NCBI RefSeq assembly: GCF_024721115.1
Contig: NZ_JAMDHK010000003.1
Coordinates: forward strand, 109,403-173,402
Direction of reading: 5' to 3'
Source of the DNA: Salipiger pentaromativorans
GTDB taxonomy: Bacteria; Pseudomonadota; Alphaproteobacteria; Rhodobacterales; Rhodobacteraceae
DNA length: 64,000 bases
Below, piece by piece: positions 17,152 through 54,623 of the stretch (position 1 is its first letter; each line of letters begins with the position of its first letter). The notes under the pieces were generated by a model, which was given only the letters and a program-made list of their open reading frames with translations, made no database searches and had not been told where the DNA came from. Position numbers and translations under genes: made by a program.

Positions 17152-17162
17152 AGGACTTCTCG

Positions 17163-19703: not shown

Positions 19704-19732
19704 CCCTTTTCCAATCCCGACCGGACCAAGAC

Positions 19733-20680: not shown

Positions 20681-20689
20681 GCGCGGCGA

Positions 20690-23736: not shown

Positions 23737-23757
23737 GATACGGATCTCCTTGCGCTG

Positions 23758-26221: not shown

Positions 26222-26238
26222 TGGAACAAGTTTTCCCA
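26222..26238. promoter_or_regulatory. Operator-like dyad, copy 1
   Basis: TGGAACA-AGT-TTTCCCA lies 47 bases before the dimethylglycine-dehydrogenase-like ATG (minus strand). It has the same 7-3-7 geometry as the perfect site at 46129-46145 and shares its first nine bases, TGGAACAAG; the right half matches TGTTCCA in five of seven positions. Confidence 0.5.
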
Positions 26239-26447
26239 AGAAGGACATCAGTGGAGATAATGTGTCAATATCGAAGACCCGGAAAATCCCGAAACCGTCG
26301 AAATTGCGGGCGAATCCAGCAAGATGAAAACGACGATAAAATTTGAAGTTTTCGATATAATAATTTGAAATATAATGATAAAATTCCATGCATCCGCTGC
26401 GCGTCGCGCTGTCATTTTGGAGTCTATTTTTTCATCAATCTTTGATA

Positions 26448-26464
26448 TTGAAAATTATGTTCCA
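26448..26464. promoter_or_regulatory. Operator-like dyad, copy 2
   Basis: TTGAAAA-TTA-TGTTCCA lies about 114 bases before the enoyl-CoA hydratase ATG. The right half is identical to the right half of the perfect site at 46129-46145; the left half matches TGGAACA in five of seven positions. Confidence 0.45.
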
Positions 26465-38894: not shown

Positions 38895-39817
38895 CTCAAT
38901 TGCGGATTGAGCGCATCGCGCAGCCAGTCACCGAGAAGGTTCACCGACAGCACCAGAAGCGCCAGCGTGACCCCCGGCAGGATGGTGATCCACCACTCGC
39001 CGGAGAACAGGAAATCATTGCCGATGCGGATCAGGGTCCCGATCGACGGCTCGGTGGGCGGCATGCCCAGCCCGAGGAAGGACAGGGTCGCTTCGGTCAG
39101 GATCGCGATGGCCAGATGCACCGTGCCCAGCACGAAGATCGAGCCGGTGGCATTGGGCAGGATGTGCCGCATGGCGATGGTCACCGGGTTCACCCCGATG
39201 AGCCGCGCCGCCTCGACATAATCCTTGCCCTTTTCCACCATGGCGATGCTGCGCACGGTGCGCGCATATTGCACCCAGCCCGAGATCGCGATGGCCAGGA
39301 TCACGATGGGCATGGCCAGCGAGGCGTGCTGCTCCTGCGGCAGCACGTTGCGCGCCACCCCGTCGACCAGCAGCGCGATCAGGATCGCCGGAAACGAAAG
39401 CTGGATATCGGCCAGCCGCATGATCGCGGAATCGAACCAGCCGCCGACCCAGGCCGCGACCAGCCCCAGCGCCGTGCCCACCAGCGCCGACAGCAGCACC
39501 GCCGAGACCGAGATCGTCAGCGACAGCCGCAGCCCGTAGAGGATGCCCGAGAACACGTCGCGCCCCTGATTGTCGGTGCCCAGCGGAAAGGTCATGTTGC
39601 CGCCATCCGACCAGAAGGGCGGGATCAGCCCGTTCATCAGGTCGATGCCCGAGGCATCATAGGGATCGTAGGGCGCCAGTATCGGCGCGAGGAGCGCCGA
39701 CAGGATCAGGCTGCCCGCGACGACAAAGCCGACGATGGCCAGCGGGCTCCTGCGGAACTCGTAGAGGATGTCGCTGTTCCAGAAGGCGGCCCAGCGGGAA
39801 AGTCCTTGATCGGTCAT
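38891..39817 (-). CDS. Dipeptide-type ABC transporter permease (DppC-like)
   Basis: A 308-residue permease with an N-terminal helix (IVGFVVAGSLILSALLAPILAPYDP), the DppC motif FPLGTDNQGRDVFSGILYGLRLSL and a BPD-family EAA loop, YVEAARLIGVNPVTIAMRHILPN. It has about six membrane segments. It lies 33 bases after the DppB-like stop and overlaps the ATPase gene downstream. Confidence 0.93.
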   Translation of the reverse strand: MTDQGLSRWAAFWNSDILYEFRRSPLAIVGFVVAGSLILSALLAPILAPYDPYDASGIDLMNGLIPPFWSDGGNMTFPLGTDNQGRDVFSGILYGLRLSLTISVSAVLLSALVGTALGLVAAWVGGWFDSAIMRLADIQLSFPAILIALLVDGVARNVLPQEQHASLAMPIVILAIAISGWVQYARTVRSIAMVEKGKDYVEAARLIGVNPVTIAMRHILPNATGSIFVLGTVHLAIAILTEATLSFLGLGMPPTEPSIGTLIRIGNDFLFSGEWWITILPGVTLALLVLSVNLLGDWLRDALNPQLR

Positions 39818-39850
39818 GATTGTCCTTGCCCTGCCCGTTCCGTCGCCCGC

Positions 39851-40822
39851 CTAGGTCCAGCCCGAGCGCAGGCGCGGATCGACGACGAAATAGAGAATGT
39901 CCACGAAGAGGTTGATCGCCACGAACATCAGCGAGACGAAGACCAGATAGGCCGCCATCACCGGGATGTCGCCGAAGTTCAGCGCCTGAATGAACAGCAG
40001 CCCGAGGCCCGGCCACTGGAACACCGTTTCGGTGATCACGGCGAAGGCGATGATCGAGCCCATTTGCAGCCCGGTGATGGTGATCACCGGCACCAGCGTG
40101 TTCTTGAGCGCATGGCGGAAATAGATCGCCCGCGAGGTCAGCCCGCGCGCCTGCGCAAAGCGGATGTAATCGGTGCGCACGATCTCGAGCATCTCGCTGC
40201 GCACCAGCCGCATGATCAGCGTCATCTGGAACAGCGACAGCGTGACCGAGGGCAGCAGGATGGATTTCAGGCCCGACCAGCTCAGCAGCCCGGTCGACCA
40301 CCAGCCCAGCATCACCACGTCGCCGCGTCCGAAGGGCGGCAGCCAGCGCAGCACGATGGCAAAAAGCACGATCAGCACAATCCCGGTGAAGAAGGTCGGC
40401 AGAGACACCCCGATCAGCGACACCGACATGAACAGTTTCGACAGCCACGACCGTGGCCGGATCCCGGCGTAGATCCCCATCGGGATGCCGACGAGCAGCG
40501 CCAGGAACACCGCGACGAGGCTCAGTTCGGCGGTCGCTGGCAGGCGCTCGGCCACGATGTCGATCACCGGGCGGGCATATTGATAGGAGAGCCCGAAATC
40601 CCCCTGTACCGCGCGCCCGATAAAGCGGGCGTATTGCACCAGAAACGGGTCGTCGAGCCCCAGCTCGGTGCGCAGCCGCGCCCGGTCGTCGGTCGAGGCC
40701 GAGGGCCCGAGCATATTGTTCACCGGGTCGCCCACATAGGTGAACAGCGCAAAGGCGATGAGGCCCACGGCCAGCATCACGCCAATCGACTGCAAAATCC
40801 GGCTGATGATGAATCGGATCAC
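39851..40822 (-). CDS. Dipeptide-type ABC transporter permease (DppB-like)
   Basis: A 323-residue permease with about six helices. RFIISRILQSIGVMLAVGLIAFALF at the N-terminus, RTELGLDDPFLVQYARFIGRAVQGDFGLSYQ and the EAA loop YIRFAQARGLTSRAIYFRHALKNTLVP are DppB features. It is the first gene of the minus-strand permease/ATPase unit. AAGGA precedes its ATG. The promoter lies in the 515-base region shared with the binding protein at 41338. Confidence 0.93.
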   Translation of the reverse strand: MIRFIISRILQSIGVMLAVGLIAFALFTYVGDPVNNMLGPSASTDDRARLRTELGLDDPFLVQYARFIGRAVQGDFGLSYQYARPVIDIVAERLPATAELSLVAVFLALLVGIPMGIYAGIRPRSWLSKLFMSVSLIGVSLPTFFTGIVLIVLFAIVLRWLPPFGRGDVVMLGWWSTGLLSWSGLKSILLPSVTLSLFQMTLIMRLVRSEMLEIVRTDYIRFAQARGLTSRAIYFRHALKNTLVPVITITGLQMGSIIAFAVITETVFQWPGLGLLFIQALNFGDIPVMAAYLVFVSLMFVAINLFVDILYFVVDPRLRSGWT

Positions 40823-41337
40823 GCCTGGTCCTTTCTTCCGCTCTGCGGATTGTCCTGCCCCCCGCTCCGCGAGGCGCCCGAGTCCGCCCTATCCGCCCCC
40901 CGGAGTGGATCAAAGAATCGGTCATTGTTCCCACCGATCAAGACAGTCCCTCGCCGGATGCCGCCGGAAACGGCAGCAAAGCGCACAAGTTTTAAGCTGC
41001 GGGGCAAGCCGTCCCTCGGCCCTGCCGGCAGACAACCCGCGACCGGCGCGGCATCACGGGAATTGCCGCCCCGGCGCAACCCGCCTCCGGGCCCCGATTC
41101 TTGCAGGATTTCGGGCTGCATGGCACCTTTTACCCCCTGAATTGACCGTATTGTATTTATTGTTTGTCATACACATTCTGAGATAAAGCCCCCAAACGGT
41201 CAATCAATAATTCCCATTTTGTCTTGATTGAACGCAAATTGTGTGCAGGAATTCTTCAGAAGGCGCCCCAAGAGCGCCCCGCCGCGCGCTTCTGCGACGC
41301 AGAATATCCGCTCACCAACCGGGAATCGATACAACCA
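40823..41337. other. Divergent promoter region between dppB-like and binding-protein genes
   Basis: A 515-base gap. The half next to the permease gene is GC-rich and featureless to me. Bases 41130-41235 are AT-rich and contain TATTTATTGT (41154-41163), also found at 60066-60075 upstream of the MocR gene, and a long inverted repeat at 41200-41231. No convincing coding frame is present. Confidence 0.65.
41200..41231. promoter_or_regulatory. Inverted repeat with 8-base arms upstream of first binding protein
   Basis: TCAATCAA (41200-41207) and TTGATTGA (41224-41231) are perfect reverse complements separated by 16 bases, placing their centres about two helical turns apart (24 bp). This suits a dimeric or cooperative regulator. 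It lies about 107 bases before the start at 41338. Confidence 0.55.
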
Positions 41338-42933
41338 ATGATGACAATACCTCGCAAACTGACAACCGGACTGCTCCTGGCCGGCGCCACCGCCCTCACA
41401 CCGGTCGCGAGCCTTGCCGAAACCCTCACCTGGTCCACCGCGGGCGATTTCTCGACCCTGGACCCGCACGCACAAAGCAGCACGATCAACAACCTCGTGC
41501 TCGGTCAGATCTACGAGCCGCTGGTCTCGCGCGACAACGACCTCAAGCTGCTTCCCGCACTCGCCACCTCCTGGGCGCCGCTCAGCGACACCGAGTGGGA
41601 GTTCAAGCTCCGCGAGGGCGTGACCTTCCACGACGGCGCCACGTTCGACGCCGACGACGCGATCTTCTCGATCGAACGCGCCAAGTCCCCGACCTCGGAT
41701 TACAAGGTGGCGGTACAATCCATCGACCATGTCGAAAAGATCGACGATTACACCATCAAGATCGTTACAAACGCCCCCTCGCCCACGCTCCCGGACTGGC
41801 TGACCACGATCTTCATGGTCGATCAGGGCTGGGCCGAAGCCAATGACGTGGTCGCCCCGCAGGATCTCAAGGCCGGTGTCGAGAACTACGCCGCGCGCAA
41901 CGAAAACGGCACCGGTCCGTTCATCGTGACCGAGCGTATCCCCGATGTCCAGACGGTCATGCAGGCGGCGCCGGACTACTGGGACCGCGCCAATTTCGCC
42001 GAGGGCTACGACACGCTGGTCCACAAGCCGGTGAAATCCGCCCCGACCCGCGTCGCCGGTCTGATCTCGGGCGAGATCGACCTGGTGCTCGACCCGCCGA
42101 TGCAGGATTTCGCGCGCATCGAGGCCGATCCGAACCTCAAGATCACCAAGGCGCTCGAAGTCCGCACGCTGTTCTTCGGATTCGACGTCAAGAGCGACAC
42201 GCTGCGTTATGGCAGCGGCGTCGAGGACAACCCGTTCCAGGACCGCCGCGTCCGCCAGGCCGTCTATCAGGCGATCAACGCCGAAGGCATCCAGCGCCAG
42301 ATCATGCGCGGCAACTCGGTGCTGGCGGGCTCGATCTACCCGCCCAAGACCAACGGCTATACTCAGGCGCTGGACGACGACCGCCTGTCCTATGACGTCG
42401 AGGCGGCCAAGGCGCTGATGACCGAGGCGGGCTATGCGGACGGGTTCACCGTCACGCTCGATTGCACCAACAACTACTATGTGAACGACGAGGCGATCTG
42501 CCAGGCGCTGGTGCCGATGCTCGCGCAGATCGGCATCACCGTTCAGCCCAACCTGCGGCCCTCGGGCCAGGCCTTTGGCGGGATGCTCAAGCGCGAGACC
42601 AGCTTCTTCCTGCTGGGCTTCGGCGTGCCGACGCTCGATGCGGAATATCTCTTCCGCTATCTGCTACACACACCCGACGGCAGCCTCGGCACCTGGAACT
42701 TCACCGAATATTCCAACCCCGAGATCGACGATCTGATTGCCAAGGTCGGTGTCACCATCGACCCCGAGACGCGCAACGCGATGATGGCCGAGATCATCCA
42801 GCGCACCACCGACGAGTACATCTATGTGCCGCTGCATCACCAGATGCTCGCCTGGGCCATGGCCAAGGATGTCGAGATGGAACCGCGCTCGGACAGCAAG
42901 CCCCAGTTCAAATACGCCAAGCCGGCCAAGTGA
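41338..42933 (+). CDS. ABC transporter substrate-binding protein, family 5 (DppA-like), copy 1
   Basis: A 531-residue periplasmic binding protein with a signal peptide (ending VASLAE) followed by the family 5 start TLTWSTAGDFSTLDPHAQSS. WEFKLREGVTFHDGATFDADDAIFSIERAK is the family signature. Two ATGs stand in tandem (41338 and 41341); neither has a good ribosome site. It is about as long as its downstream paralogue and closely similar to it. It supplies the divergent Dpp-type permease. The genes that follow (cyclic amidohydrolase, amidase) suggest a ureide, imide or similar N-compound as ligand. Confidence 0.9.
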   Translation: MMTIPRKLTTGLLLAGATALTPVASLAETLTWSTAGDFSTLDPHAQSSTINNLVLGQIYEPLVSRDNDLKLLPALATSWAPLSDTEWEFKLREGVTFHDGATFDADDAIFSIERAKSPTSDYKVAVQSIDHVEKIDDYTIKIVTNAPSPTLPDWLTTIFMVDQGWAEANDVVAPQDLKAGVENYAARNENGTGPFIVTERIPDVQTVMQAAPDYWDRANFAEGYDTLVHKPVKSAPTRVAGLISGEIDLVLDPPMQDFARIEADPNLKITKALEVRTLFFGFDVKSDTLRYGSGVEDNPFQDRRVRQAVYQAINAEGIQRQIMRGNSVLAGSIYPPKTNGYTQALDDDRLSYDVEAAKALMTEAGYADGFTVTLDCTNNYYVNDEAICQALVPMLAQIGITVQPNLRPSGQAFGGMLKRETSFFLLGFGVPTLDAEYLFRYLLHTPDGSLGTWNFTEYSNPEIDDLIAKVGVTIDPETRNAMMAEIIQRTTDEYIYVPLHHQMLAWAMAKDVEMEPRSDSKPQFKYAKPAK

Positions 42934-42942
42934 TCCGGCCCC

Positions 42943-42971
42943 GCCCCTTCCGCCAATCCGGCGGGAGGGGC
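42943..42971 (+). other. Strong hairpin after binding-protein copy 1
   Basis: A 12-bp stem (GCCCCTTCCGCC with GGCGGGAGGGGC, one G-T pair) around loop AATCC, ten bases after the stop. No T-tract follows. Position and strength suggest an mRNA 3-prime stabiliser or partial terminator that raises binding-protein output. Confidence 0.6.
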
Positions 42972-43037
42972 CCACGGGCAGAACACCCGCGGTCACAAGC
43001 GGTCTGCCACAGCCTCGAACAACAGGGACAGAATGAT

Positions 43038-44627
43038 ATGCGACTTTCCGGAAAAACCCGCCTCGCCCTTTCGGCCGCCCTCGCCCTTGCGCTGACCGGC
43101 CCCGCCTATGCCCAGACCAGCCTCACCTGGTCCACCGGCGCCGACCTGATCACGCTCGACCCGCATGCCGCCAGCGTCGGCATCAACAATACCGGTCTCG
43201 GCCAGATCTACGAGCCGCTCATCACCCGCGATCAGGATCTGAAACTGACCCCCGCGCTCGCCACCGAATGGAAGAGCCTCGACGACACCACCTGGGAATT
43301 CAAGCTGCGCGAGGGCGTGAGTTTCCACGACGGCAGCCCCTTCACCGCCGAGGACGCGGCCTTTTCGATCAACCGCGCCAAGGCGCCGACCTCGGATTAC
43401 AAGGTCGCCGTGGCCGCGGTCTCCGAGGTCGAGATTCTCGACGACTACACCATTCACATCAAGACCGCCGAACCCGCCCCCACGCTGCCCGACTGGCTGA
43501 CCACGATCTTCGTGATGGACAGCGGCTGGGCCGAAACAAACGACGTGCTGCAACCGCAGGACTTCAAGGGCGGTGACGAGAACTATGCCGCGCGGCACGC
43601 CAACGGCACCGGTCCCTTCCTGGTGACCGAACGCATCCCCGGCGTGCGCACCGCGATGGATGCGTTCGAGGGCTACTGGGACCGCGAGCATTTCCCGCTC
43701 ACCTATACCCAGCTCATCCATATCCCCATCGCCTCGGCCCCGACCCGCGTCGCGGGCCTGATCTCGGGCGAGCTCGACATCGTGCTCGACCCGCCGCTTC
43801 AGGATCTGGCGCGGATCGAGGCCGACCCGGCCCTGAAGGTCGAGACCGGCAACGAGATCCGCTCGATCTTCTTCGGCTTCGACGTCGAAAGCCCCACCCT
43901 GCGCTTCGGCTCCGGCACCGAGACCAACCCGTTCCTCGATCCGCGCGTGCGCCGCGCGGTCTATTTGGCGATCAATTCCGACGGCATCCAGCGCCAGATC
44001 ATGCGCGGACTCTCGACCCCGGTGGGTACGCTGTTCTCGCCGCGGCTGAACGGCCATAACCCGGCCTTTGTCGAGCGTCTGGCCACCGACCCCGAGGCCG
44101 CCAAGGCGCTGATGGCCGAGGCTGGCTATGCGGACGGCTTCAAGGTCCGGCTCGACTGCACCAACAACCGCTACGTCAACGACGAGGCGATCTGCCAGGC
44201 GGTGGTGCCGATGCTGGCCCGGATCGGCATCGAGGTCGAGCTGAACTCGCGCCCCGCCACCCAGGCCTTCCCGGACATGCTGAACCGGAACACCAGCTTC
44301 TTCATGCTGGGCTTCGACGCGCCGACCATGGATGCGGAATACATCTTCCGCTACATCCTGCACACGCCCGACGGCACGCTCGGCACCTGGAACTTCGGCA
44401 ATTACTCGAACCCCGAGGTCGACACCCTGCTGGGCGGAATCGCCACCGAGCTCGACCTCGACAAGCGGCGCGAGATGATGGCCAGGGTGATCGAGATCAC
44501 CCGCGACGAAACCGTCTATGTGCCGCTGCACCTTCAGGGCCTTGCCTGGGCCATGAAGAAAAGCGTCGCCCTCAGCGTGCGCTCCGACAACAAACCGCAA
44601 TTCAAATACGCCCATCCCGCCGAATGA
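43038..44627 (+). CDS. ABC transporter substrate-binding protein, family 5 (DppA-like), copy 2
   Basis: A 529-residue paralogue of the preceding protein, with its own signal peptide (ending TGPAYAQ) and the matching start SLTWSTGADLITLDPHAASVG. Long stretches are near-identical between copies (for example SAPTRVAGLISGE, LDCTNN, NDEAICQA), while the loops between differ. Duplication followed by divergence suggests two related ligands served by one permease. An AGGGA lies upstream of the ATG. Confidence 0.9.
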   Translation: MRLSGKTRLALSAALALALTGPAYAQTSLTWSTGADLITLDPHAASVGINNTGLGQIYEPLITRDQDLKLTPALATEWKSLDDTTWEFKLREGVSFHDGSPFTAEDAAFSINRAKAPTSDYKVAVAAVSEVEILDDYTIHIKTAEPAPTLPDWLTTIFVMDSGWAETNDVLQPQDFKGGDENYAARHANGTGPFLVTERIPGVRTAMDAFEGYWDREHFPLTYTQLIHIPIASAPTRVAGLISGELDIVLDPPLQDLARIEADPALKVETGNEIRSIFFGFDVESPTLRFGSGTETNPFLDPRVRRAVYLAINSDGIQRQIMRGLSTPVGTLFSPRLNGHNPAFVERLATDPEAAKALMAEAGYADGFKVRLDCTNNRYVNDEAICQAVVPMLARIGIEVELNSRPATQAFPDMLNRNTSFFMLGFDAPTMDAEYIFRYILHTPDGTLGTWNFGNYSNPEVDTLLGGIATELDLDKRREMMARVIEITRDETVYVPLHLQGLAWAMKKSVALSVRSDNKPQFKYAHPAE

Positions 44628-44720: not shown

Positions 44721-46085
44721 TTGTTCGATATGATCCTGCGCAACGGCATCGTGGTGGACCCGCTCGACGGCGCCCGTCCAGCCGATCTGGCGATCAGCAA
44801 CGGCGTGATTGCCGCAATCCTGCAACCCGGCAGCGAGGCCGCATCGCGCAGGCAGATCGACGTCAGCGGGAAATACCTGTTCCCCGGAATCATCGAACCG
44901 CATACCCATATCGGCTTTCTCAACGATTTCGATGCCGATGTGACCAGCGAAAGCGCCTCGGCCGCGATCGGCGGGGTGACCACCGTCTTCAGCTTCCACC
45001 GCCATTACAAAAGCGCCGAGCCGAAACCCTATGACGATCTGCCCGAGCTGATCGGCGCCATCGACGCCGGCGCCCATGTGGACATGGCGCTGCATCTGGG
45101 GATGCTGACCGAGGACCAGACCGGCGAGATCGAGAAATACATCGACCAGGGCGTCAGCTCGTTCAAGTTCTACATGGCCTATCGCGGCGAGGACGGCAAA
45201 ACCGTCGGCATGATCAACGACATCGACGACGGTGTCATGTTCGATGCCTTCACCACCCTGGGCCGCTTCGATCACGCGGTGGCCTGCGTGCATTGCGAGA
45301 ACACCGAAATCATCGGCCGCCGGGTGCGCGCCGCCAAGGCCGCGGGCCGCGCCGACCTGGCCGCCTGGAACGCCGCCCGCCCCTCTTTTGCCGAGGCGGA
45401 ACATGTGCGCCGCGCGGGCTATTTTGCCGAAGAGGCGGGGTGTAATCTCTATTACGTGCACATCGGCGCGCAGAAGAGCGTCGACGAGGCGATTCTGCAA
45501 AAGGCCCGCTACGACCGCATCACCATCGAGACCTGCCCGCATTACCTGACGCTGACCGAAACCTCGGCCCTGGGCCCCATGGCCAAGGTGAACCCGCCGG
45601 TGCGCGCCCAGGCCGATCAGGACCGGATCTGGGAGACCGTGCTTTCGGGCGAGATCGAGACCATCGGCACCGATCACTGCGCCATGCCCCGGACCCGCAA
45701 GGCGGGCGACATCTGGCAGGCCTCGCCCGGTTTCCCCGGCATGGCGACCATGCTGCCGGTGATGCTGCACCACGGGCATCACAAGCGCGGGATGGGGCTG
45801 CAAGAGATCGCCAAGGCGCTGTCCTACAACGCCGCCAAAGCCTTTAACCTGCTGCCGCGCAAGGGCGCGCTCCAGGTCGGCTTCGATGCCGACATCGCCG
45901 TGGTCGATCTGGAGATGGAACAGACCGTGACCCCCGAGGCGCTTGGCTCGAGCGCCGATTTCTCGCTCCAGGAAGGCGAGGTGCTCAAGGGCTGGCCGGT
46001 CATGACGCTGCTGCGCGGCAAGCTGGTGGCCGAGGGCGGCCGGGTTGTCGGCTCGGCCGGCGACGGCGCCTATCTCGCCCGGTGA
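44721..46085 (+). CDS. Cyclic amidohydrolase (dihydropyrimidinase/hydantoinase family)
   Basis: A 454-residue metal-dependent amidohydrolase. The binuclear metal site is visible: H61-T-H63 (EPHTHIGF), the Lys expected to be carboxylated at K149 (SSFKFYMAY), His residues in YVHIGAQ and CPHYL-type stretches, and D318 (GTDHCAM). Family members open cyclic ureides such as dihydrouracil, hydantoin or allantoin to N-carbamoyl amino acids. A nitrilase-superfamily amidase follows, as expected for two-step ureide breakdown. The TTG start is chosen on the perfect AGGAGG; length is normal for the family. Exact substrate unknown. Confidence 0.88.
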   Translation: MFDMILRNGIVVDPLDGARPADLAISNGVIAAILQPGSEAASRRQIDVSGKYLFPGIIEPHTHIGFLNDFDADVTSESASAAIGGVTTVFSFHRHYKSAEPKPYDDLPELIGAIDAGAHVDMALHLGMLTEDQTGEIEKYIDQGVSSFKFYMAYRGEDGKTVGMINDIDDGVMFDAFTTLGRFDHAVACVHCENTEIIGRRVRAAKAAGRADLAAWNAARPSFAEAEHVRRAGYFAEEAGCNLYYVHIGAQKSVDEAILQKARYDRITIETCPHYLTLTETSALGPMAKVNPPVRAQADQDRIWETVLSGEIETIGTDHCAMPRTRKAGDIWQASPGFPGMATMLPVMLHHGHHKRGMGLQEIAKALSYNAAKAFNLLPRKGALQVGFDADIAVVDLEMEQTVTPEALGSSADFSLQEGEVLKGWPVMTLLRGKLVAEGGRVVGSAGDGAYLAR

Positions 46086-46117
46086 CAATCGGGGCAAAGG
46101 ATTCATAATTTTCATTC

Positions 46118-46145
46118 TTGACAATAAATGGAACAAGATGTTCCA
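46118..46145 (+). promoter_or_regulatory. Promoter with perfect 17-bp operator upstream of nitrilase gene
   Basis: TTGACA (46118-46123) is a perfect -35 hexamer. Immediately downstream TGGAACA-AGA-TGTTCCA (46129-46145) is a perfect dyad lying in the -35/-10 spacer, a classic repressor position. The -10 is poor (TTCCAT at 17 bp spacing). The region is AT-rich. Related dyads occur at 26222 and 26448. Confidence 0.7.
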
Positions 46146-46211
46146 TCCCTCACAGCTCGCGCGCCGTCCCGTCTTCGGAACGCCCCGCAAAACCAGAAGG
46201 ACCCCCACAAG

Positions 46212-47129
46212 ATGACGACCGACCCCAAGAAGAAACTGTCCGTGCTGACGATCCAGTGCGGCGCCGTCGACCCCGATCCGGTCAAGAACGTGCCCGTGCT
46301 CATCGACTTCCTGCGCGAAGCGACCAAGGATCAGGTGCCCGATTTCGTCGTGTTCACCGAGCTGGCGACCACGCAGTATTTCTGCGGTTTCAACGATCCG
46401 AAATGGTTCGACGTGGCGGAACCCATCGACGGCCAGGCGGTCACCGCCTTCCGCGAAGAGGCCAAGCGCCTGGGCTGCCATATCCTGCTGCCCTTCTACG
46501 AGAAGTCGAAGGTCAAGGGCGAGTTCTTCAACTCGCTGGCGGTCATCGGCCCCGATGGCGAGCTGATCCCCGGCACCCTGCCCGACGGCCGTCAGGTCTC
46601 GGTCTACCGCAAGAACCACATCCCCGACCAATACAGCTACAGCCCGGGCCTGAACGAGCGCTATTACTTCAAGGGCGGCCCCGGCCTGCCGGTCTTTGAC
46701 ACGGTGCACGGCAAGATCGGCTGCCTGATCTGCTACGAGCGCTCCTTCCCCGAAGCCTGGCGGGTGCTGGCGATCCACGGCGCGCAAATCATCTTCGTGC
46801 CGACCGCCGCCTGGGGTCCGAACCGTGCCGAAAGCTGGGGCTTCGAGCTGCGCACCGCCGCCGTGCAGAACGGCGTCTTCGTGGTCGCGCCCAACAAGGG
46901 CGGCGTCGAGGTCACCGAGGGCGAGCGCAACTTCTACGGCCGCTCCACCGTGTTCAGCCCGATGGGCGAGCTGCTTGCCGAAGGCCCCGAGCGCGAAGGC
47001 CCCGCCCCGGTCTGGGCGGAACTCGACATGGAAGACGTCTATCGCCACGGCAAGCGCTACACCTTCTTCCGCGACCGCCGTCCCGAGCTTTACACCTCGC
47101 TCGGCGACACCTGGCGCAACGTGTACTGA
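46212..47129 (+). CDS. Nitrilase-superfamily amidohydrolase (N-carbamoyl amidase/beta-ureidopropionase type)
   Basis: A 305-residue carbon-nitrogen hydrolase with the catalytic triad E50 (VVFTELATTQ), K134 (VYRKNHIPD) and C174 (GCLICYERSFPEAWR). The sequence pattern is that of N-carbamoylputrescine amidase and beta-ureidopropionase rather than true nitrilases. It would release ammonia and CO2 from the carbamoyl product of the upstream cyclic amidohydrolase. The ATG at 46212 follows AGAAGGA; the frame is open upstream but crosses the operator. The oxidoreductase gene begins eleven bases after its stop. Confidence 0.88.
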   Translation: MTTDPKKKLSVLTIQCGAVDPDPVKNVPVLIDFLREATKDQVPDFVVFTELATTQYFCGFNDPKWFDVAEPIDGQAVTAFREEAKRLGCHILLPFYEKSKVKGEFFNSLAVIGPDGELIPGTLPDGRQVSVYRKNHIPDQYSYSPGLNERYYFKGGPGLPVFDTVHGKIGCLICYERSFPEAWRVLAIHGAQIIFVPTAAWGPNRAESWGFELRTAAVQNGVFVVAPNKGGVEVTEGERNFYGRSTVFSPMGELLAEGPEREGPAPVWAELDMEDVYRHGKRYTFFRDRRPELYTSLGDTWRNVY

Positions 47130-47140
47130 GGAGCCCTGTC

Positions 47141-48145
47141 ATGAGAGTCGGAGTCTTCCTTGGCACCCAGCACCCGGCTGGCGCGGATATGCGCCAGATG
47201 TTCGAAAACCACGTCAAACAGACCTGGGCCGTCCGCGATGGCGGTTATGACGGGATCTGGCTGGCCCAGCATTACCTGACCTACCCCGACCAGTTCTTCC
47301 AGCCGAACCCGCTTCTGGCGCGTCTGGCGGCGGAAAGCGGTGATCTGACCATCGGCACGAACATCCTGGTTCTGCCGCTGCACAATATCATCGACCTGGC
47401 CGAGCAATATGCCACGATCGACATCATCACCGGCGGCAAGCTGGTGCTGGGCGTCGCGCTCGGCTATCGGGACGAAGAGTATAACGCCTTCGGAATCAAC
47501 CGGAAAACCCGGGCCAAGCGCTTTGACGAACAGCTCGACGCGCTGCGCCTGCTGTGGTCCGAGGACAACGCCACCTATCACGGCGATCACATCAACTTCG
47601 AGAATATCTCGATCCGTCCGCAGCCGCTGCAACGCCCCAACCCCGAGATCTGGGTCGGCGCCGCCGCCGATCCGGCGATCAAGCGCGCCGCCCGCAAGGG
47701 CGACAACTGGATCGCCACCTCGGTGACCACCGCCTCGGCGATGAAGCCGCAGGTCGAGCTTTACCACAAGACCCGCGAAGAGGCCGGCAAGCCCAAGGCC
47801 GACGGGTTTGCGAAATGCGTGGAGCTGTTCGTCGCCGAGACCAAGGAAAAGGCGCTGGAACTGGGCGGACCCTACATCGCCGAGAAATACCGCGCCTATT
47901 ATTCCTGGGGCATGGGCAAGAACGTGCCCGGCGAATCCGGCGAGGGGCTCGACATCGCCGAGCTGATCAAGGACCGCTTCATCGTCGGCAGCCCCGAGGA
48001 TTGCATCCGCGAATGCCTCGAACAGCGCGACACGCTGGGGGTCTCGGATCTGCTCGTGCGGATGAACTTCCCCGGCATGCCCATCGACCTGTCGCTGAAG
48101 ACGCTCAAGCTCTTCGCCGACGAAGTCCTGCCGCATATCCGCTGA
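47141..48145 (+). CDS. LLM-class (luciferase-like) F420- or FMN-dependent oxidoreductase
   Basis: A 334-residue TIM-barrel protein of the bacterial luciferase superfamily. LTIGTNILVLPLHNIIDLAEQYATIDIITGGKLVLGVALGY spans the cofactor-binding core (residues about 66-110), followed by the usual KRFDEQLDALRLLW. The superfamily uses either FMNH2 with O2 or F420, and sequence alone does not settle which. The gene sits ten bases before an NADPH:F420 oxidoreductase and the F420 biosynthesis genes, so F420 is the more likely cofactor. It may reduce the ring before hydrolysis. Confidence 0.85.
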   Translation: MRVGVFLGTQHPAGADMRQMFENHVKQTWAVRDGGYDGIWLAQHYLTYPDQFFQPNPLLARLAAESGDLTIGTNILVLPLHNIIDLAEQYATIDIITGGKLVLGVALGYRDEEYNAFGINRKTRAKRFDEQLDALRLLWSEDNATYHGDHINFENISIRPQPLQRPNPEIWVGAAADPAIKRAARKGDNWIATSVTTASAMKPQVELYHKTREEAGKPKADGFAKCVELFVAETKEKALELGGPYIAEKYRAYYSWGMGKNVPGESGEGLDIAELIKDRFIVGSPEDCIRECLEQRDTLGVSDLLVRMNFPGMPIDLSLKTLKLFADEVLPHIR

Positions 48146-48154
48146 GGCAGCACG

Positions 48155-48802
48155 ATGAGCGACAAACCCAAAATCGCCATCATCGGCGGCACCGGCGCAC
48201 TTGGCGCCGGGATCGCCGGGCGGCTGGCGCGCGCGGGCTATCCGGTGGTGATCGGCTCGCGCGATGCGGCCAAGGCCGGCGCCGCGGCGCTGGAGATCGG
48301 CGACGGCGTGACCGGCAGCGATTATGCCGGTGCGGCCTCCGCAGCGGAAATCGTCATCCTGGCGGTGCCGTGGTCGGTGCACGAGGCGACGCTGGCCGAT
48401 CTGGCGCCGGTGCTCAAGGGCCGTATCCTGGTGGATGCGGTGGTGCCTCTGGTGCCGCCCAAGGTGTCGGTCGTGCAGCTTCCCGAAGGCGGCTCGGCGG
48501 CGCAGATCGCGCAGGACACGCTGGGCGACGAGGTGCGCGTTGTCGGCGCGTTCCACAATATCGGCGCGGCGAAACTCGCCGGCGAGGGCGATCTGGGCTG
48601 TGATGTGCTGGTGTCGGGCAACGACAAGGAGGCCAAGGCGACGGTGATCGCGCTGTGCGAGGTACTCGGATCGCGCGGGATCGACTGCGGCCCGATCCAG
48701 AACGCGGCGGCGGCCGAGGCGATGACCTCGCTGCTGATCGGCATCAACCGCCGCTACAAGGCGAGCGCTGCCGGAATCCGCATCACCGGGATCGACAAGT
48801 GA
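48155..48802 (+). CDS. npdG: NADPH-dependent F420 reductase (Fno/NpdG)
   Basis: A 215-residue Rossmann protein. IAIIGGTGALGAGIAGRLARAG is the dinucleotide motif and VVIGSRD the NADP-specific SR position; VVGAFHNIGAAKL and GSRGIDCGPIQNAAAAEAMTSLLIGINRRYK are Fno-family stretches. It exchanges hydride between NADPH and F420, making F420H2 for the adjacent oxidoreductase. Fno homologues in F420-using nitroaromatic degraders (NpdG) play the same role. Its stop overlaps a possible GTG start of the next gene. Confidence 0.9.
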   Translation: MSDKPKIAIIGGTGALGAGIAGRLARAGYPVVIGSRDAAKAGAAALEIGDGVTGSDYAGAASAAEIVILAVPWSVHEATLADLAPVLKGRILVDAVVPLVPPKVSVVQLPEGGSAAQIAQDTLGDEVRVVGAFHNIGAAKLAGEGDLGCDVLVSGNDKEAKATVIALCEVLGSRGIDCGPIQNAAAAEAMTSLLIGINRRYKASAAGIRITGIDK

Positions 48803-48915
48803 CGGCGGGGCCGGCCGCCCCGCCCGCTTCCGCCGTGACAGCACCGGCCCATGCAGTAAGCTCGGCCCCGGCCGCGCATGGGCCGGACAGAACAACGGAA
48901 GCAGAGGCAGCAGCG

Positions 48916-49689
48916 ATGGCCGGCAGGTCGCAACGATTGGAAATCACGGCACTCGAGGGATTGCCGCTCTTTCACCCCGGCGACGATCTCGCCGCCGAGC
49001 TGAGCGCCGCGCTCAGACGCCAGAACCTCGTCCCGCAGGACGAAGATGTGATTGTTCTGGCACAGAAAATCATCTCCAAGACCGAAAACCGCTATCTCCG
49101 CCTGGACGAGATCACCCCAAGCGCCGAGGCGCTCGCGCTGGCCGAGACCGTCCAGAAAGACCCCCGGCTGGTCGCGGCGGTGCTGTCGGAAACCCGCCGG
49201 GTGGTGCGCGCGGTGCCGCATGTGCTGATCGTCGAGCACAAGCTCGGCCATGTCATGGCCAACGCGGGCATCGACCAGTCCAATGTGGACCACGACGGCG
49301 GCGAGCGGCTGCTGCTCCTGCCGGTGGATCCGGACGGCTCGGCGGCGGCGCTGAAGGCACGGCTCGACGCCGCGTTCGGGGTCTCGATGGGCGTGGTGAT
49401 CAACGACAGTTTCGGGCGCCCCTGGCGCAACGGTGTCACCGGCGTGGCGCTGGGAGTGGCCGGGTTGCCCGCGCTGCACGATATGGTCGGCGCGACCGAT
49501 CTTTTCGGGCGCGAGATGCGCGTGACGCAGGTGGCGCAGGCCGACGAGATCGCCGCCGCTGCCTCGCTGATGATGGGCCAGGGCGCCGAAGGCCGCCCCG
49601 CGGTGCTGCTGCGCGGCTTGTCTCTGGACGGCCCCGCCACGGGCACGGAGGCGCTGATCCGCCCGGCGGCCCAGGATCTTTTCCGATGA
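48916..49689 (+). CDS. cofE: Coenzyme F420-0:L-glutamate ligase (CofE)
   Basis: A 257-residue ligase adding glutamates to F420-0 with GTP. Signature stretches are [33 protein letters not shown] (metal/GTP site) and [21 protein letters not shown]. The length matches archaeal CofE alone: there is no C-terminal nitroreductase domain as in mycobacterial FbiB. The ATG at 48916 starts the conserved part; a GTG at 48799, overlapping the npdG stop, would add 39 low-complexity residues. The stop overlaps cofD (ATGA). Confidence 0.92.
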
Positions 49690-50630
49690 GCGGCCCCCGC
49701 AAGATCGTGGCGCTTTCGGGCGGCGTGGGCGGCGCCAAGCTCGCCTTCGGGCTCGACCGCGCGCTGCCCGCCGGAGCGCTGAGCGTCATCGTCAATACCG
49801 GCGACGATTTCACCCATCTCGGCCTGCCGATCTCGCCCGACATCGACACGCTGCTCTACACGCTTTCGGGGCTCAACGACACGCGGCGCGGCTGGGGCCG
49901 GGCGGGCGAGAGCTGGGCCTTCATGGAAACGCTGCGAGAGCTGGGCGGCGAGGACTGGTTCCAGCTCGGCGACCGCGATCTGGCGCTGCATGTGCTGCGC
50001 GGCGCAATGCTGGCATCGGGACAGGATCTGACGCAGGTGACGGCGGCGCTGGCCGCGCGGATGGGCATCGCGGCCAAGGTTCTGCCGATGTCCGACGCGC
50101 CTTCGCCCACCCTGGTCGAGACCCCGGACGGGGCGCTGGAATTCCAGCGCTACTTCGTCGAACAGCGCTGCGCGCCGGTGGTGACCGGGCTGCGCCACGG
50201 CGCTGCCGCCCCCTCCCCCGCCGTGCTGGCGGCGTTGGCCGATCCCGCGCTCGCCGGCATCGTGATCTGCCCGTCGAACCCCTGGCTTTCGATCGACCCG
50301 ATCCTTGCCCTGCCCGGCCTGTCCGAAGCGCTACGCGCCAGCAGTGCGCCGGTGGTTGCGGTCTCGCCGCTGGTCGGTGGCCAGGCGGTGAAGGGCCCCA
50401 CCGCCAAGATCATGGCCGAGCTGGGCCTGCCGGTGACCAACGCCTCCATCGCCGCGCATTATGCCGGGCTGATCGACGGGCTGGTGATCGACCGCGCCGA
50501 TGCCGGCGATGCCGGCGCGCTGCCGCTGCCCGTCGCCGTGGAAGAGACGCTGATGACCGACGATGCCCGCAAGATCGCGCTGGCCGGGCGCGTGCTGGGC
50601 TTTCTCGACACATTGCGAGAGGGCGCATGA
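49686..50630 (+). CDS. cofD: 2-phospho-L-lactate transferase (CofD/FbiA)
   Basis: A 314-residue enzyme that transfers the phospholactyl-type group from its guanosine diphosphate carrier to the deazaflavin Fo. The family start [16 protein letters not shown] is followed by [30 protein letters not shown], both binding the substrate nucleotide; [13 protein letters not shown] is the second conserved stretch. Length is normal. It overlaps both cofE and cofC by four bases. Confidence 0.94.
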
Positions 50631-51334
50631 CCCTTCAGGCGGTGATCCCGGTCAAGCGCTTCGAGGCGGCAAAAAGCCGCCTCTCAGGCCATCTCCTGCC
50701 GCAGCAGCGCGCGGCGCTGGCCGAGGCGATGTTCCGCGACGTGCTGGGCACCGCGCAAGCGGCGGGGATCTTTACCCGCATCGCGGTGGTCACCGCCTGT
50801 CCGAAGGCCGGCGCCATCGCCCGCGCCGCCGGGGCGCAGGCGATCCCCGATCCCCGCGGCGCCGCCGGCACCAATGCGGCGGTGACGGCGGCGCTGGACG
50901 CCCTGCCCCGGCATGGCGGCACCATGATCCTTCAGGCCGACCTGCCGCTTCTGGCGCCCGACGACCTGCGCCGCATCGCCCGCGCCCATGGCGCCGGCCA
51001 GGGCGTCACGCTGGTGCCCGCGCTCGACGGCGGCACCACCATCCTCGCGCTCGCCGCGCCCGCGCCGATCCGCCCGGCCTTTGGCCCGCAGAGCTTTGCC
51101 CGCCACATCGCCGCCGCCCGCGCCGCCGGGATCGAACCGCAGCTTCTGGCCCCGCGCAACGCGCTTTGCGACCTCGACCGCCCCGCCGATCTGGCGCTGC
51201 TCGCCGCCTGCCGGCCGCAAAGCCACAGCGCGCAGCTTGCCCGGCAGCTCGGGCGCGCCGCCCCCACGACACTGCAAGACGGAGAAAGACATGCTGAACG
51301 CCTCGCTGACACCGGACTCCTATCTTTCTCCTGA
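50627..51334 (+). CDS. cofC: Phospholactate/phosphoenolpyruvate guanylyltransferase (CofC/FbiD)
   Basis: A 235-residue nucleotidyltransferase that activates the three-carbon precursor of F420 with GTP. AVIPVKRFEAAKSRLSGHLLP is the family N-terminus and LQADLPLLAPDDLRRI holds the metal-binding Asp. Homologues use 2-phospholactate, phosphoenolpyruvate or 3-phosphoglycerate; sequence here does not tell which. The C-terminal 30 residues are read through the fbiC start, giving a 44-base overlap in different frames. Confidence 0.9.
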   Translation: MTLQAVIPVKRFEAAKSRLSGHLLPQQRAALAEAMFRDVLGTAQAAGIFTRIAVVTACPKAGAIARAAGAQAIPDPRGAAGTNAAVTAALDALPRHGGTMILQADLPLLAPDDLRRIARAHGAGQGVTLVPALDGGTTILALAAPAPIRPAFGPQSFARHIAAARAAGIEPQLLAPRNALCDLDRPADLALLAACRPQSHSAQLARQLGRAAPTTLQDGERHAERLADTGLLSFS

Positions 51335-53654
51335 GGCCGCGCTCGCGCTCGCCGGAGAGACCGATCTCGCCGGGCTGATCCGCCTGGCCGGACAGCGCCG
51401 CGATCTCGCCCATCGCGATGTCGTCTCTTATTCGCGCAAGGTGTTCATCCCGCTCACCCAGCTTTGCCGCGACGTCTGCGGCTACTGCACCTTCGCCAAG
51501 ACCCCGCGCAAGCTGGAACAGGCGTTTCTCAGCTTCGACCAGATCCGCGAGATCGCCCGCGCGGGCGTCGCCGCCGGCTGCCGCGAGGCGCTCTTTACGC
51601 TCGGCGACAAGCCCGAGCTGCGCTACCGCATCGCGGCGGAAGAGCTGGCGCGCATGGGCTATGACAGCACGCTCGACTACCTGCGCGCCGCTGCCGAGAT
51701 GGTGTTCCGCGAATTCGGCCTGCTGCCGCATGTGAATCCCGGGCTGATGAGCCGCAGCGACATGACGGCGCTGCGGCAGGTTTCGGCCTCGCAGGGGATC
51801 ATGCTGGAAAGCGTCTCGCCCCGGCTGATGCAGCGCGGCGGCGCGCATTTCGGCGCCCCCGACAAGGACCCCGAGCTGCGGCTGGCCACCATCCGGCTGG
51901 CGGGCGAACTGCAAATCCCCTTCACCACCGGCATCCTCTCGGGCATCGGCGAGACGCGCGAAGAGCGCATCCGCTCGCTGCTGGCGCTGCGCGCGCTGCA
52001 CGAGGAATACGGCCATATCCAGGAGATCATCGTCCAGAACTTCCAGCCCAAGCCGGGCACGCGCATGGCCGCGACCGCGCCGCAGCCGCTGGAAGATCAT
52101 CTCTGGACCATTGCCGTGGCCCGGCTGATCTTTGCCCCGGAAATGTCGATCCAGGCGCCGCCCAACCTCAGCGCCGAGGCGATGCCCGCGCTGATCGACG
52201 CCGGCATCAACGACTGGGGCGGCGTGTCGCCGGTCACCCCGGACCATGTGAACCCCGAAAAGCCCTGGCCGCATCTCGAAGTGCTGGCCCGGCGCACCGA
52301 GGAATGCGGCAAGGTGCTGGTCGAGCGGCTGGCGCTCTACCCGTCCTACGCGCTCGACCGGCAGCGCTGGGTGGACCCCGGCCTGCAACCCTCGGTCATC
52401 CGCAGCATCGACATGGAGGGCTATGCCCGCACAGACGCCTGGTCGCCGGGGCGCAACGAGGATTTCCCCATCACCCCCTCGCCGGTCGCCAGCGCGCTGC
52501 GCCGCTCGCCCGAGATCGCGGCGATCCTCGCCCGCGCACAGCAGGGCGAGACCCTGAGCGAAGCGCAGGTGGTGCGGCTCTTCCAGGCGCGGGGCGGCGA
52601 TTTCGAGGCGGTGCTCGAGGCCGCCAACGCGCTGCGGCAGGAGGTGAACGGCGAGCGTGTCGGCTATGTCATCACCCGCAATATCAACTACACCAACATC
52701 TGCTCCTACCGCTGCAAGTTCTGCGCCTTCTCCAAGGGCAAGACCCATGAGGCGCTGCGCGGCAAGCCCTATAACCTGTCGCTGGACGAGATCGCCGAGC
52801 GCACCCGCGACGCCGCCCGCCGGGGCGCCACCGAGGTATGTATGCAGGGCGGGATCCACCCCGACTACACCGGCGAAACATATTTGCAGATCGTGCGCAG
52901 CGTGAAAGCGGCGGTGCCGGGTATGCATGTGCACGCGCTGTCGCCGCTGGAAGTGTGGCAGGGCGCGCAGACGCTGGGCATCTCGCTGGAGGAATTCCTG
53001 GTCGAGCTGTCCCGCGCCGGGCTCAGCAGCCTGCCGGGCACCGCCGCCGAGATCCTCGACGACGAGGTCCGGCGCGAGCTTTGCGCCGACAAGCTCACCA
53101 CCGCGCAATGGTTCGAGGTGGTCGATACCGCGCACCGCGTCGGGCTGAAGACCACCGCCACGATCATGTTCGGCCATATGGAACGGCTGGAGCACTGGGC
53201 GCGCCACCTGCTGCGGCTGCGGGCGCAGCAAGAGAAGACCGGCGGCTTCACCGAGCTGGTCCCCCTGCCCTTCGTGCATATGGAGGCGCCGATCTACCTC
53301 AAGGGCGGCGCGCGGCGCGGGCCTTCGGCGCGCGAGGCGCTGCTGATGCATGCGGTGGGACGGCTGGCGCTGCACCCGGTGATCCCCAATATCCAGGCGT
53401 CCTGGGTCAAGATGGGGCTCGACGGCCTGTCCGCCTGCCTGCGCGCGGGCGCCAACGATCTGGGCGGCTCGCTGATGGAAGAGACCATCTCGCGCGCGGC
53501 CGGGGCCGCGCACGGGCAGGAGGTCACCGCGATGCAATTCGAGGAACTGGGCCGCCGCAACGACCGGCAGCCCTACCAGCGCACCACAACCTATGGCGAG
53601 GCCCGCGGATCGAACGCCGGGCCGCGCACACCCGACTTGCTCGGCCTGTCGTGA
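51291..53654 (+). CDS. fbiC: Fo synthase, fused CofG-CofH (FbiC)
   Basis: A 787-residue bifunctional radical SAM enzyme making the deazaflavin Fo from tyrosine and the pyrimidine 5-amino-6-ribitylaminouracil. The CofG half has the cluster motif C59-x3-C63-x2-C66 (CRDVCGYC); the CofH half has C471-x3-C475-x2-C478 (CSYRCKFC). Each half has the following radical SAM barrel stretches, such as LFTLGDKPE in CofG and VCMQGGIHPDYTG in CofH. The fused form is typical of actinobacteria and other bacteria rather than methanogens. GGAGAAAGAC precedes the ATG, which lies inside cofC. Confidence 0.95.
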   Translation: MLNASLTPDSYLSPEAALALAGETDLAGLIRLAGQRRDLAHRDVVSYSRKVFIPLTQLCRDVCGYCTFAKTPRKLEQAFLSFDQIREIARAGVAAGCREALFTLGDKPELRYRIAAEELARMGYDSTLDYLRAAAEMVFREFGLLPHVNPGLMSRSDMTALRQVSASQGIMLESVSPRLMQRGGAHFGAPDKDPELRLATIRLAGELQIPFTTGILSGIGETREERIRSLLALRALHEEYGHIQEIIVQNFQPKPGTRMAATAPQPLEDHLWTIAVARLIFAPEMSIQAPPNLSAEAMPALIDAGINDWGGVSPVTPDHVNPEKPWPHLEVLARRTEECGKVLVERLALYPSYALDRQRWVDPGLQPSVIRSIDMEGYARTDAWSPGRNEDFPITPSPVASALRRSPEIAAILARAQQGETLSEAQVVRLFQARGGDFEAVLEAANALRQEVNGERVGYVITRNINYTNICSYRCKFCAFSKGKTHEALRGKPYNLSLDEIAERTRDAARRGATEVCMQGGIHPDYTGETYLQIVRSVKAAVPGMHVHALSPLEVWQGAQTLGISLEEFLVELSRAGLSSLPGTAAEILDDEVRRELCADKLTTAQWFEVVDTAHRVGLKTTATIMFGHMERLEHWARHLLRLRAQQEKTGGFTELVPLPFVHMEAPIYLKGGARRGPSAREALLMHAVGRLALHPVIPNIQASWVKMGLDGLSACLRAGANDLGGSLMEETISRAAGAAHGQEVTAMQFEELGRRNDRQPYQRTTTYGEARGSNAGPRTPDLLGLS

Positions 53655-53673
53655 AATGACATAAACTGCCGTC

Positions 53674-53697
53674 CCGGACGGGCCTTGGCCCGCCCGG
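53674..53697 (+). terminator. Hairpin after fbiC
   Basis: CCGG-A-CGGGCC pairs with GGCCCG-C-CCGG: ten paired bases, one A/C mismatch, loop TT. It lies 20 bases after the fbiC stop and ends just before the regulator's ribosome site. No T-tract, so it may attenuate rather than stop transcription. Confidence 0.5.
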
Positions 53698-53726
53698 ACA
53701 GGCATGACGAAGGGAGAGTCTGCCCA

Positions 53727-54623
53727 TTGACCGAAAAACCGTCCGAACGCCCCGAGGAAACCGCTGAAGAGATCCTCGACCGGTTGATCCGCGCCAGCAC
53801 CGAGCTCAGCCCGCAGCGCAAGAAAGCCGCGAAATATCTCATCGACCATCCCGACGAGATCGCCGTGGTGCCGCTACGCCAGCTTGCCGCCAATGCCGGG
53901 GTGAAGGCCAGCACGCTGGTCCGGGTCGCAGCCGCCATCGGCTATACCAGTTTCTCGCAGTTGCGCCTGCCGTTCCGCGCCCAGCTCCGGATCGGCGAGG
54001 ACTATATCTCGGAACGCGCACAGAAGCTCGAAAGCCAGGGACGGCAGGGCGGCAAGCTCTATGCCGGCATGGCACAGGCGGCGATGACCAATCTCGAATT
54101 GCTGTTCTCGCAGGACCTGACGCCGCAACTGACCGAGGTCGCGCGCAAGATGGTCGCCGCCCGGCGCGTCGTCGTGACGGCGGTGGGCAGCGGCTACGCG
54201 CTGGCGCATCAGTTCTGCTATGTGGGCCGCATGGCGCTGCCCAACCTCTCGCTGACGCCGCAGATCGGCGGGCTGCCGGTGGACGATCTGCTCGACGTGG
54301 GCCCGCGCGACGTGGTGCTGCTGCTGAGCTTTCAGCCCTACCGGCGCGAAACCATCGACGCCGCCAATCTCGCGCGCGAACGCGGCGCCACGGTGGTGGC
54401 GATCACCGACAGCCGCACCTCGCCCATCGCGCTGCCCGCCGACACGGTCTTTGTGGTGCCCACCGACACGCCGCAGTTCTTCCCCTCGATGTCCGCCGTG
54501 CTGTCGCTGCTGGAAACGCTGGTGGCGCTGATCGTCACCCAGGGCGGCAAGAAGGCGGTGACCAATATCAACACCTTCAACCAGACCCGGCGCGATTTCA
54601 GCATCTGGTGGCACGAGGACTGA
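53727..54623 (+). CDS. RpiR/MurR family transcriptional regulator (HTH plus SIS domain)
   Basis: A 298-residue regulator. The N-terminal HTH_6 domain (residues about 15-90) includes LIDHPDEIAVVPLRQLAANAGVKASTLVRVAAAIGYTSF; the SIS domain (residues 125-270) has VVVTAVGSGYALAHQFCYVGRM, DVVLLLSFQPYRRETIDAA and VVAITDSRTSPIA. No ATG is available in frame. The TTG at 53727 lies ten bases after GGGAG and starts the charged N-terminus. SIS domains bind small phosphorylated or related metabolites. Being next to the F420/amidohydrolase set it is the best candidate for its regulator. Confidence 0.85.
   Translation: MTEKPSERPEETAEEILDRLIRASTELSPQRKKAAKYLIDHPDEIAVVPLRQLAANAGVKASTLVRVAAAIGYTSFSQLRLPFRAQLRIGEDYISERAQKLESQGRQGGKLYAGMAQAAMTNLELLFSQDLTPQLTEVARKMVAARRVVVTAVGSGYALAHQFCYVGRMALPNLSLTPQIGGLPVDDLLDVGPRDVVLLLSFQPYRRETIDAANLARERGATVVAITDSRTSPIALPADTVFVVPTDTPQFFPSMSAVLSLLETLVALIVTQGGKKAVTNINTFNQTRRDFSIWWHED

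Follow-up and report, generated by a model that had tools for sequence, protein, structure and literature searches.

Why should an alphaproteobacterium carry the genes of coenzyme F420 synthesis in one row with those of a cyclic amidohydrolase and an amidase? A 2021 review lists the reason that Proteobacteria make F420 as unanswered, and knows of no F420H2-dependent reductase examined by experiment in F420 makers outside the Actinobacteria (PMC8498797). The question is raised by nine genes in a 64,000-nucleotide stretch of Salipiger pentaromativorans DNA (contig NZ_JAMDHK010000003.1, here C33, positions 109403-173402; assembly of 5.28 Mb in 39 contigs), which we call the window and whose own numbering we use. 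The nine encode a cyclic amidohydrolase (HYD), a nitrilase-superfamily amidase (NIT), a luciferase-like hydride transferase (LLM), the F420 proteins NpdG, CofE, CofD, CofC and FbiC, and an RpiR-type regulator. From sequence comparisons we read them as an F420H2-dependent catabolic operon for a cyclic ureide-like nitrogen ring, probably under RpiR control and with a hydantoin-like compound as the best guess at substrate, and we put the probability of this reading at about 0.58.

All nine genes of the original prediction were recovered in NCBIfam and Pfam scans, on the plus strand and in the order claimed. HYD (44721-46085), which has a TTG start after AGGAGG, is separated by 126 bp from NIT (46212-47129), and from NIT to the end of RpiR (53727-54623, its start being approximate) the genes form the single tight run of short spacers and overlaps that had been described. 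LLM occupies 47141-48145 and is followed by npdG/fno, the NADPH-dependent F420 reductase gene (48155-48802; TIGR01915, 178.7 bits, cut-off 149.8). The F420-0 gamma-glutamyl ligase gene cofE (48916-49689; TIGR01916, 275.4 bits, cut-off 180.65) most likely starts at ATG 48916, which leaves a 113 bp spacing from npdG. Then come cofD (49686-50630; TIGR01819, 271.8 bits, cut-off 257.45), cofC (50627-51334; TIGR03552, 151.1 bits, cut-off 105) and fbiC (51291-53654; NF006687, 1115.3 bits, cut-off 1018), which encodes a fused CofG-CofH FO synthase and starts 44 bp inside the end of cofC. As cofC, cofD, cofE and fbiC all score above curated NCBIfam cut-offs, the window is strongly predicted to encode synthesis of F420 or of a variant such as 3PG-F420.

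The LLM protein (Pfam Bac_luciferase, 162 bits) had been proposed to work with F420, and its distribution is in line with that proposal. Of 385 genomes of the host's class, 60 have cofD and 19 have LLM homologues at E<=1e-50 (31-43% identical, the own genome not counted); every one of the 19 belongs to the 60. The hypergeometric probability of this is 2.9e-17, and leaving out the own genome changes it to 1.9e-16, kinship being ignored in both cases. By hand count the ten families having an LLM homologue all fall within the 29 families having cofD, and fbiC is encoded in each of the three genomes that have an LLM orthologue. Within this sample, LLM occurred only where F420 can be made, and the co-distribution with cofD indirectly supports use of F420 by LLM. 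In plasmids 19 records matched LLM at 1e-40, 18 from haloarchaea and one from Streptomyces; F420 genes are described as widespread in Euryarchaeota and Actinobacteria in the 2021 review (PMC8498797).

A scan of species genomes with LLM, which detects close relatives only, gave three relatives with 86, 86 and 79% identity. Their clusters run solute-binding protein (SBP)-HYD-NIT-LLM-npdG-cofC-fbiC-RpiR (L003, in genome G775) and SBP-HYD-NIT-LLM-RpiR (L004), and the third (L002, in G774) comprises SBP, HYD, NIT, LLM and npdG. With the window counted, SBP, HYD, NIT and LLM are present in 4/4 clusters, and RpiR and npdG in 3/4 each; two of the four loci include cof genes. In the suggested check for co-occurrence of the nine genes across genomes, the SBP-HYD-NIT-LLM core recurs in three other genomes, so that its association is not due to chance, and npdG and the cof genes vary. 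The presence of npdG in three of the four clusters suggests a supply of F420H2. The predicted coupling of an F420-associated LLM to a cyclic amidohydrolase, a carbamoyl-type amidase, Fno and F420 synthesis genes thus appears to be borne out. Whole cofD genes were found in two of the three orthologue genomes, the third having a contig-edge fragment. At a contig end of G775 (L180) two ABC ATPase genes, 82 and 72% identical to those of the window, adjoin cofE and cofD, which suggests that the contigs of L003 and L180 adjoin.

Several observations weigh against the proposed operon function. The L004 locus has neither npdG nor cof genes, and its genome gave only a contig-end fragment of cofD. The palindrome described below was looked for in L002 and not found, which leaves it conserved before NIT in three of the four clusters. 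The comparison of LLM with cofD scored only about five candidates per genome and ignored kinship. Against TIGR03619, the best-scoring curated model of F420 LLM proteins, LLM scored 164.3 bits, 2.6 under the cut-off of 166.9; it was below every NCBIfam cut-off among the best 25 of 29 families and passed only the Pfam gathering score. AlphaFold models from four-sequence alignments had pLDDT values of 34.8 (LLM) and 46 (HYD), too poor for cofactor assignment. Neither HYD nor NIT was found in the 14 LLM homologue loci opened (from 10 of the 18 other class genomes) or in four opened plasmid loci. Finally, among solved structures LLM comes closest to flavin monooxygenases and luciferase, with no F420 enzyme among these best matches, as would be expected if LLM worked with FMN and O2 like the monooxygenases RutA and luciferase and lay next to the cof genes only by accident. 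We consider this quite improbable given the 19/19 association with cofD, a score of 32.3 bits against the RutA model TIGR03612 (cut-off 498.3), by which the Rut pathway is not indicated, and the lack of a flavin reductase among the nine genes in the NCBIfam and Pfam scans.

The homologue loci that lack HYD and NIT imply that the LLM subfamily has further roles. The homologue stands beside cofC in two of the 14, in one of them also beside fbiC, which speaks for a link with F420. In three of the four plasmid loci the homologue lies among CoA-ester or acyl-CoA genes. These plasmid settings would fit use of F420 in another step, with LLM acting on a side chain or product, or oxidizing its substrate with F420 as the acceptor; according to the review, hydride transferases of the LLM type can work in either direction (PMC8498797). 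We regard this as unlikely, as each of the four clusters places LLM next to HYD and NIT genes and the npdG genes suggest that it is F420H2 that is supplied.

Given the operon reading, what would the substrate be? HYD (Pfam Amidohydro_1) belongs to the hydantoinase/allantoinase/dihydropyrimidinase group, and its best solved relative is L-hydantoinase (1gkr, E 1.4e-69). Residues H61, H63, K149, H191, H247 and D318, which we take to be the metal ligands, are invariant across the four orthologues. NIT (Pfam CN_hydrolase, 148.6 bits) resembles N-carbamoyl amidases; its best solved relative is N-carbamoylputrescine amidase (5h8i, E 1.8e-33), it scored 174.5 bits against the AguB model (cut-off 410.25), and the nitrilase-superfamily domain contains the Glu, Lys and Cys residues (in FTEL, YRKNH and LICYE) that presumably form the catalytic triad. 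No plasmid match to NIT was found at 1e-40. HYD was below all NCBIfam cut-offs among the best 25 of 53 families. As HYD, NIT, LLM and RpiR all pass Pfam gathering scores but no listed NCBIfam cut-off, family membership gives no substrate. Because of the best matches of HYD and NIT, our best guess is a hydantoin-like ring that would give an alpha-amino acid, that is, a cyclic ureide other than uracil or thymine.

The original prediction had LLM replace the iron-sulfur/flavin dihydropyrimidine dehydrogenase, which it held to be absent from the locus. That absence was confirmed: among the nine genes NCBIfam and Pfam scans found no such enzyme. The genome does encode it elsewhere. On another host contig (C35) genes for PreT, PreA, an M20 carbamoylase and a dihydropyrimidinase stand side by side, PreA scoring 717 bits (cut-off 335) and the dihydropyrimidinase 592.9 (cut-off 393), and PreA is present at 78-79% identity in all three relatives. 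HYD is only 29% identical to the host's canonical dihydropyrimidinase and scored 273.2 bits against TIGR02033 (cut-off 393.25), and so does not classify as a canonical dihydropyrimidinase. In a tree of 14 rows HYD stood apart from the host dihydropyrimidinase and from E. coli HyuA and AllB with support 99/97, the E. coli AllB and Haloarcula rows being flagged as long branches. The replacement is not supported for this window. Because of the host's canonical PreTA operon, uracil and thymine are improbable substrates of the locus, and we rejected them as the main reading. That LLM is nevertheless a uracil/thymine reductase standing in for dihydropyrimidine dehydrogenase would agree with the placing of HYD in the dihydropyrimidinase group and with loci elsewhere in the host's family (below), where LLM proteins of family TIGR03842 accompany a canonical dihydropyrimidinase and PreA is absent. 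However, TIGR03842 is not among the best 25 of 29 families for the window LLM, and together with the host genes this leaves the uracil reductase a very doubtful alternative.

For the cyclic ureide operon we therefore propose the following scheme. The oligopeptide-type ABC transporter may import the ring compound. NpdG would form F420H2 from NADPH, the F420 being supplied by the co-encoded cofE, cofD, cofC and fbiC products, a step for which the family assignments are strong. With F420H2 as donor, LLM would transfer a hydride to an unsaturated bond in or beside the ring. By their families, HYD would then open the saturated ring to an N-carbamoyl acid, and an amino acid would be left once NIT had removed the carbamoyl group.

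A second arrangement of the same kinds of genes was found in G774 and in Variovorax. In G774 a second locus reads fbiC-cofE-cofD-cofC-HYD-NIT-LLM-DadA-like, its LLM lying about 15 kb from the first. On plasmid 3 of Variovorax sp. PBL-E5 (L186, 6141-20978) DadA-like and HYD genes are divergent from NIT and LLM, which are followed by genes for a CobW GTPase, NpdG and RidA, then cofG-H-D-C-E and ABC transporter genes. These two LLM proteins are 43% identical to one another and scored 175 and 203 bits against TIGR03842 (cut-off 295); by sequence they are of a subfamily different from that of the window. A search of 398 genomes of the phylum with this second type (LLM-B) gave no match at E<=1e-50 among the rows listed (own genome and 19 of the family), an empty answer that is uninformative. 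A single F420 clade of the HYD types that we labeled A and B was considered and rejected: the two HYD-B rows did not group alone, and isochorismatase-linked relatives fell among them. HYD relatives of 39-40% identity in four further loci (L207, L208, L188 and L189) have an isochorismatase-family hydrolase as partner in place of NIT; two of these loci also contain aconitase and two CobW. Downstream of the F420 genes at another locus (L178, G776:C98, 12366-19609) we saw by eye two LLM genes and two genes that we take to resemble those of the ATP-dependent hydantoinase HyuA/HyuB.

A third architecture emerged from 70 cofD loci, 57 of a class sample (the 60 cofD genomes less the own genome and the fragment-match genomes G294 and G064) and 13 of a family sample. 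The window HYD as query (1e-8) found a cyclic amidohydrolase in three, all of the family sample (L108, L116 and L117). Each is a canonical dihydropyrimidinase, 65-80% identical to that of the host, adjoined by an M20 carbamoylase (68-70%), and npdG and a TIGR03842 LLM gene (496-503 bits) are nearby. L108 has the full F420 set, L116 gave no cofC match, and L117 gave neither a cofC nor an fbiC match in the stretch. PreA gave no match in the three loci. Such an LLM gene stands beside npdG in 11 of the 13 family F420 loci (L108-L118), TIGR03842 itself being confirmed in the three checked. We sought PreA in 32 family genomes: these 11, two other F420-positive genomes and 19 cofD-negative controls (of 24 listed; G392, which is 82% complete, and G400-G403 were left out). 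PreA was found in only two of the 11 and in one of the other two F420-positive genomes. All 19 controls had a match at 1e-30, 18 of them at 74-90% identity and G395 at only 40%; Fisher's exact test of 2/11 vs 18/19 gave 3.5e-5, kinship being ignored. At 1e-60 this LLM type was also found in 12 plasmid records (Leisingera 10, Paracoccus 1, Streptomyces 1), four of which were opened. In two Leisingera plasmids (L233 and L234) hydA and the genes for a Zn-hydrolase, an aminotransferase and a transhydrogenase are divergent from a run of cofG-H-D-C-E-npdG-TIGR03842-TetR. The Paracoccus alcaliphilus plasmid has a cof-npdG-LLM run and no dihydropyrimidinase within 12 kb, and the Streptomyces record is unannotated. 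Elsewhere in the host's family, and likewise in Leisingera, an LLM protein does seem to have displaced dihydropyrimidine dehydrogenase, and the biochemical idea first put forward for the window suits these TIGR03842 loci better.

The idea of a reductive LLM gains from these two further architectures, as both pair an F420-associated LLM with a ring hydrolase and an amidase. An even chance is what we give to a broader proposal: that on at least three independent occasions Proteobacteria took an F420H2-dependent LLM protein, always in company with F420 genes, into the breakdown of cyclic ureides as its initial reductive step, and that this is a main reason for making F420. The three would be the window type, the Variovorax/G774 type and the TIGR03842 type seen in Leisingera and in relatives of the host's family, the last having displaced PreTA. 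The cluster is predicted to make F420 and probably uses it as well, which offers an explanation, open to testing, of why such bacteria produce the cofactor, and the loci name an enzyme, a reductant supply and a pathway for proteobacterial F420, also in the named hosts Leisingera and Variovorax. If this is correct, reductive ring opening can draw its electrons from F420 as well as from NAD(P)H and ferredoxin, and there would be a likely function for TIGR03842, whose entry goes no further than hypoth_equivalog.

How much of this is already known? The reductive pyrimidine (Pyd) pathway proceeds by PreTA/PydA, dihydropyrimidinase and ureidopropionase. Like the proposed scheme it reduces a ring, opens it with a cyclic amidohydrolase and removes the carbamoyl group, whereas the window has LLM plus F420 and no dihydropyrimidine dehydrogenase, a HYD that is not the canonical enzyme and NIT in place of an M20 carbamoylase, in a host that has the canonical genes in addition. 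The npd picrate/dinitrophenol system is also a catabolic cluster, in which NpdG and a hydride transferase that uses F420H2 serve for reductive attack on an electron-poor ring, but its substrates are nitroaromatics, its hosts Actinobacteria, and it is not known to have HYD or NIT. The TIGR03842 (F420_CPS_4043) loci share with the window a cof-npdG-LLM set near a cyclic amidohydrolase and a carbamoylase, and differ in LLM subfamily, in the canonical dihydropyrimidinase and the M20 carbamoylase; their function is likewise a prediction. A hydantoinase or pyrimidine neighborhood has reportedly been remarked on before for TIGR03842 or for Colwellia. Among the matches listed in the open-licence literature, judged by titles and beginnings of abstracts, we found no account of these proteobacterial F420 clusters. 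Electron donors of the Pyd pathway are known to vary between lineages; a ferredoxin variant, PydAc, has been described (PMC7332683). The window is not wholly new, because a 2025 paper already proposes an F420 LLM, itself only predicted, for reductive urate breakdown; that route likewise combines reductive dearomatization with a ring-opening amidohydrolase, but with SsnA as the hydrolase, another substrate and another phylum (PMC12507026).

The prediction that the set is a self-contained transferable module fared unevenly. Its patchiness agrees: at 1e-60 LLM was found in one of 394 genomes of the host's family, the own genome, and cofD in 14 (own genome included), and G470, of the host's genus, has neither. 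A second, separate F420 set of G775 lies on C182. Its fbiC and npdG share 57 and 47% identity with those of the window, compared with 75 and 76% for the in-cluster copies of G775, which therefore probably moved with the catabolic genes. A replicon signature was missing: a search of the host genome for RepC gave six matches, none on the window contig C33. The G+C content of the window is lowest (0.626) at 40-43 kb, is 0.64-0.65 up to 48 kb and rises to 0.69-0.72 over the cof genes, a step which hints that the locus was put together from parts.

The transporter genes upstream of HYD are part of the same conserved neighborhood (36916-44627). Those for the oligopeptide-type ABC transporter (36916-40822, minus strand; Pfam ABC_tran, oligo_HPY and BPD_transp_1) encode two ATPases (36916-37908 and 37905-38882) and two permeases (38891-39817 and 39851-40822), and relatives of 54-82% identity are near the L002, L003 and L004 clusters and also on L180. 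Two solute-binding proteins (SBP_bac_5, PF00496) are encoded on the plus strand at 41338-42933 (258 bits) and 43038-44627 (268.8 bits). The second has orthologues immediately upstream of HYD in L003 (74% identity) and L004 (77%), and is 44% identical to its L002 counterpart.

The gap between HYD and NIT contains what looks like a promoter/operator element: a -35-like TTGACA (46118) followed by a perfect palindrome, TGGAACA-AGA-TGTTCCA (46129-46145, plus strand). The palindrome lies 62-66 nt ahead of the NIT start in L003 (one mismatch) and L004 (three mismatches), and TTGACA is retained in both. RpiR proteins reportedly bind GGAA-N(6)-TTCC-like sites, and the RpiR regulator (Pfam HTH_6 and SIS; below every NCBIfam cut-off listed) has orthologues in these clusters of 72 (L003) and 74% (L004) identity. 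The window has six palindrome matches vs 0.89 expected, a number reached in none of 100 shuffles. Three of these (1416, 57457 and 61866, two to three mismatches) lack the gene setting of the two at 26222-26238 and 26448-26464 (two mismatches each), which lie between a FAD/GcvT dehydrogenase gene and a run of enoyl-CoA hydratase, acyl-CoA ligase and aldehyde dehydrogenase genes; by their sites, the genes around 26222-26464 may belong to the same regulon as the NIT unit.

By eye, positions 15985-26175 contain genes resembling FAD amino-acid or sarcosine oxidases, the scanned portion (23758-26175) being the FAD/GcvT gene. It is 81% identical to an L003 gene about 2 kb beyond RpiR, and its presence near the cluster may point to an N-methylated product. 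Genes for an aldehyde dehydrogenase, an acyl-CoA ligase, an enoyl-CoA hydratase and a thiamine-diphosphate enzyme are near the window cluster, the last three also near that of L004; as a guess, these four kinds of genes would suit onward breakdown of a 2-oxo acid.

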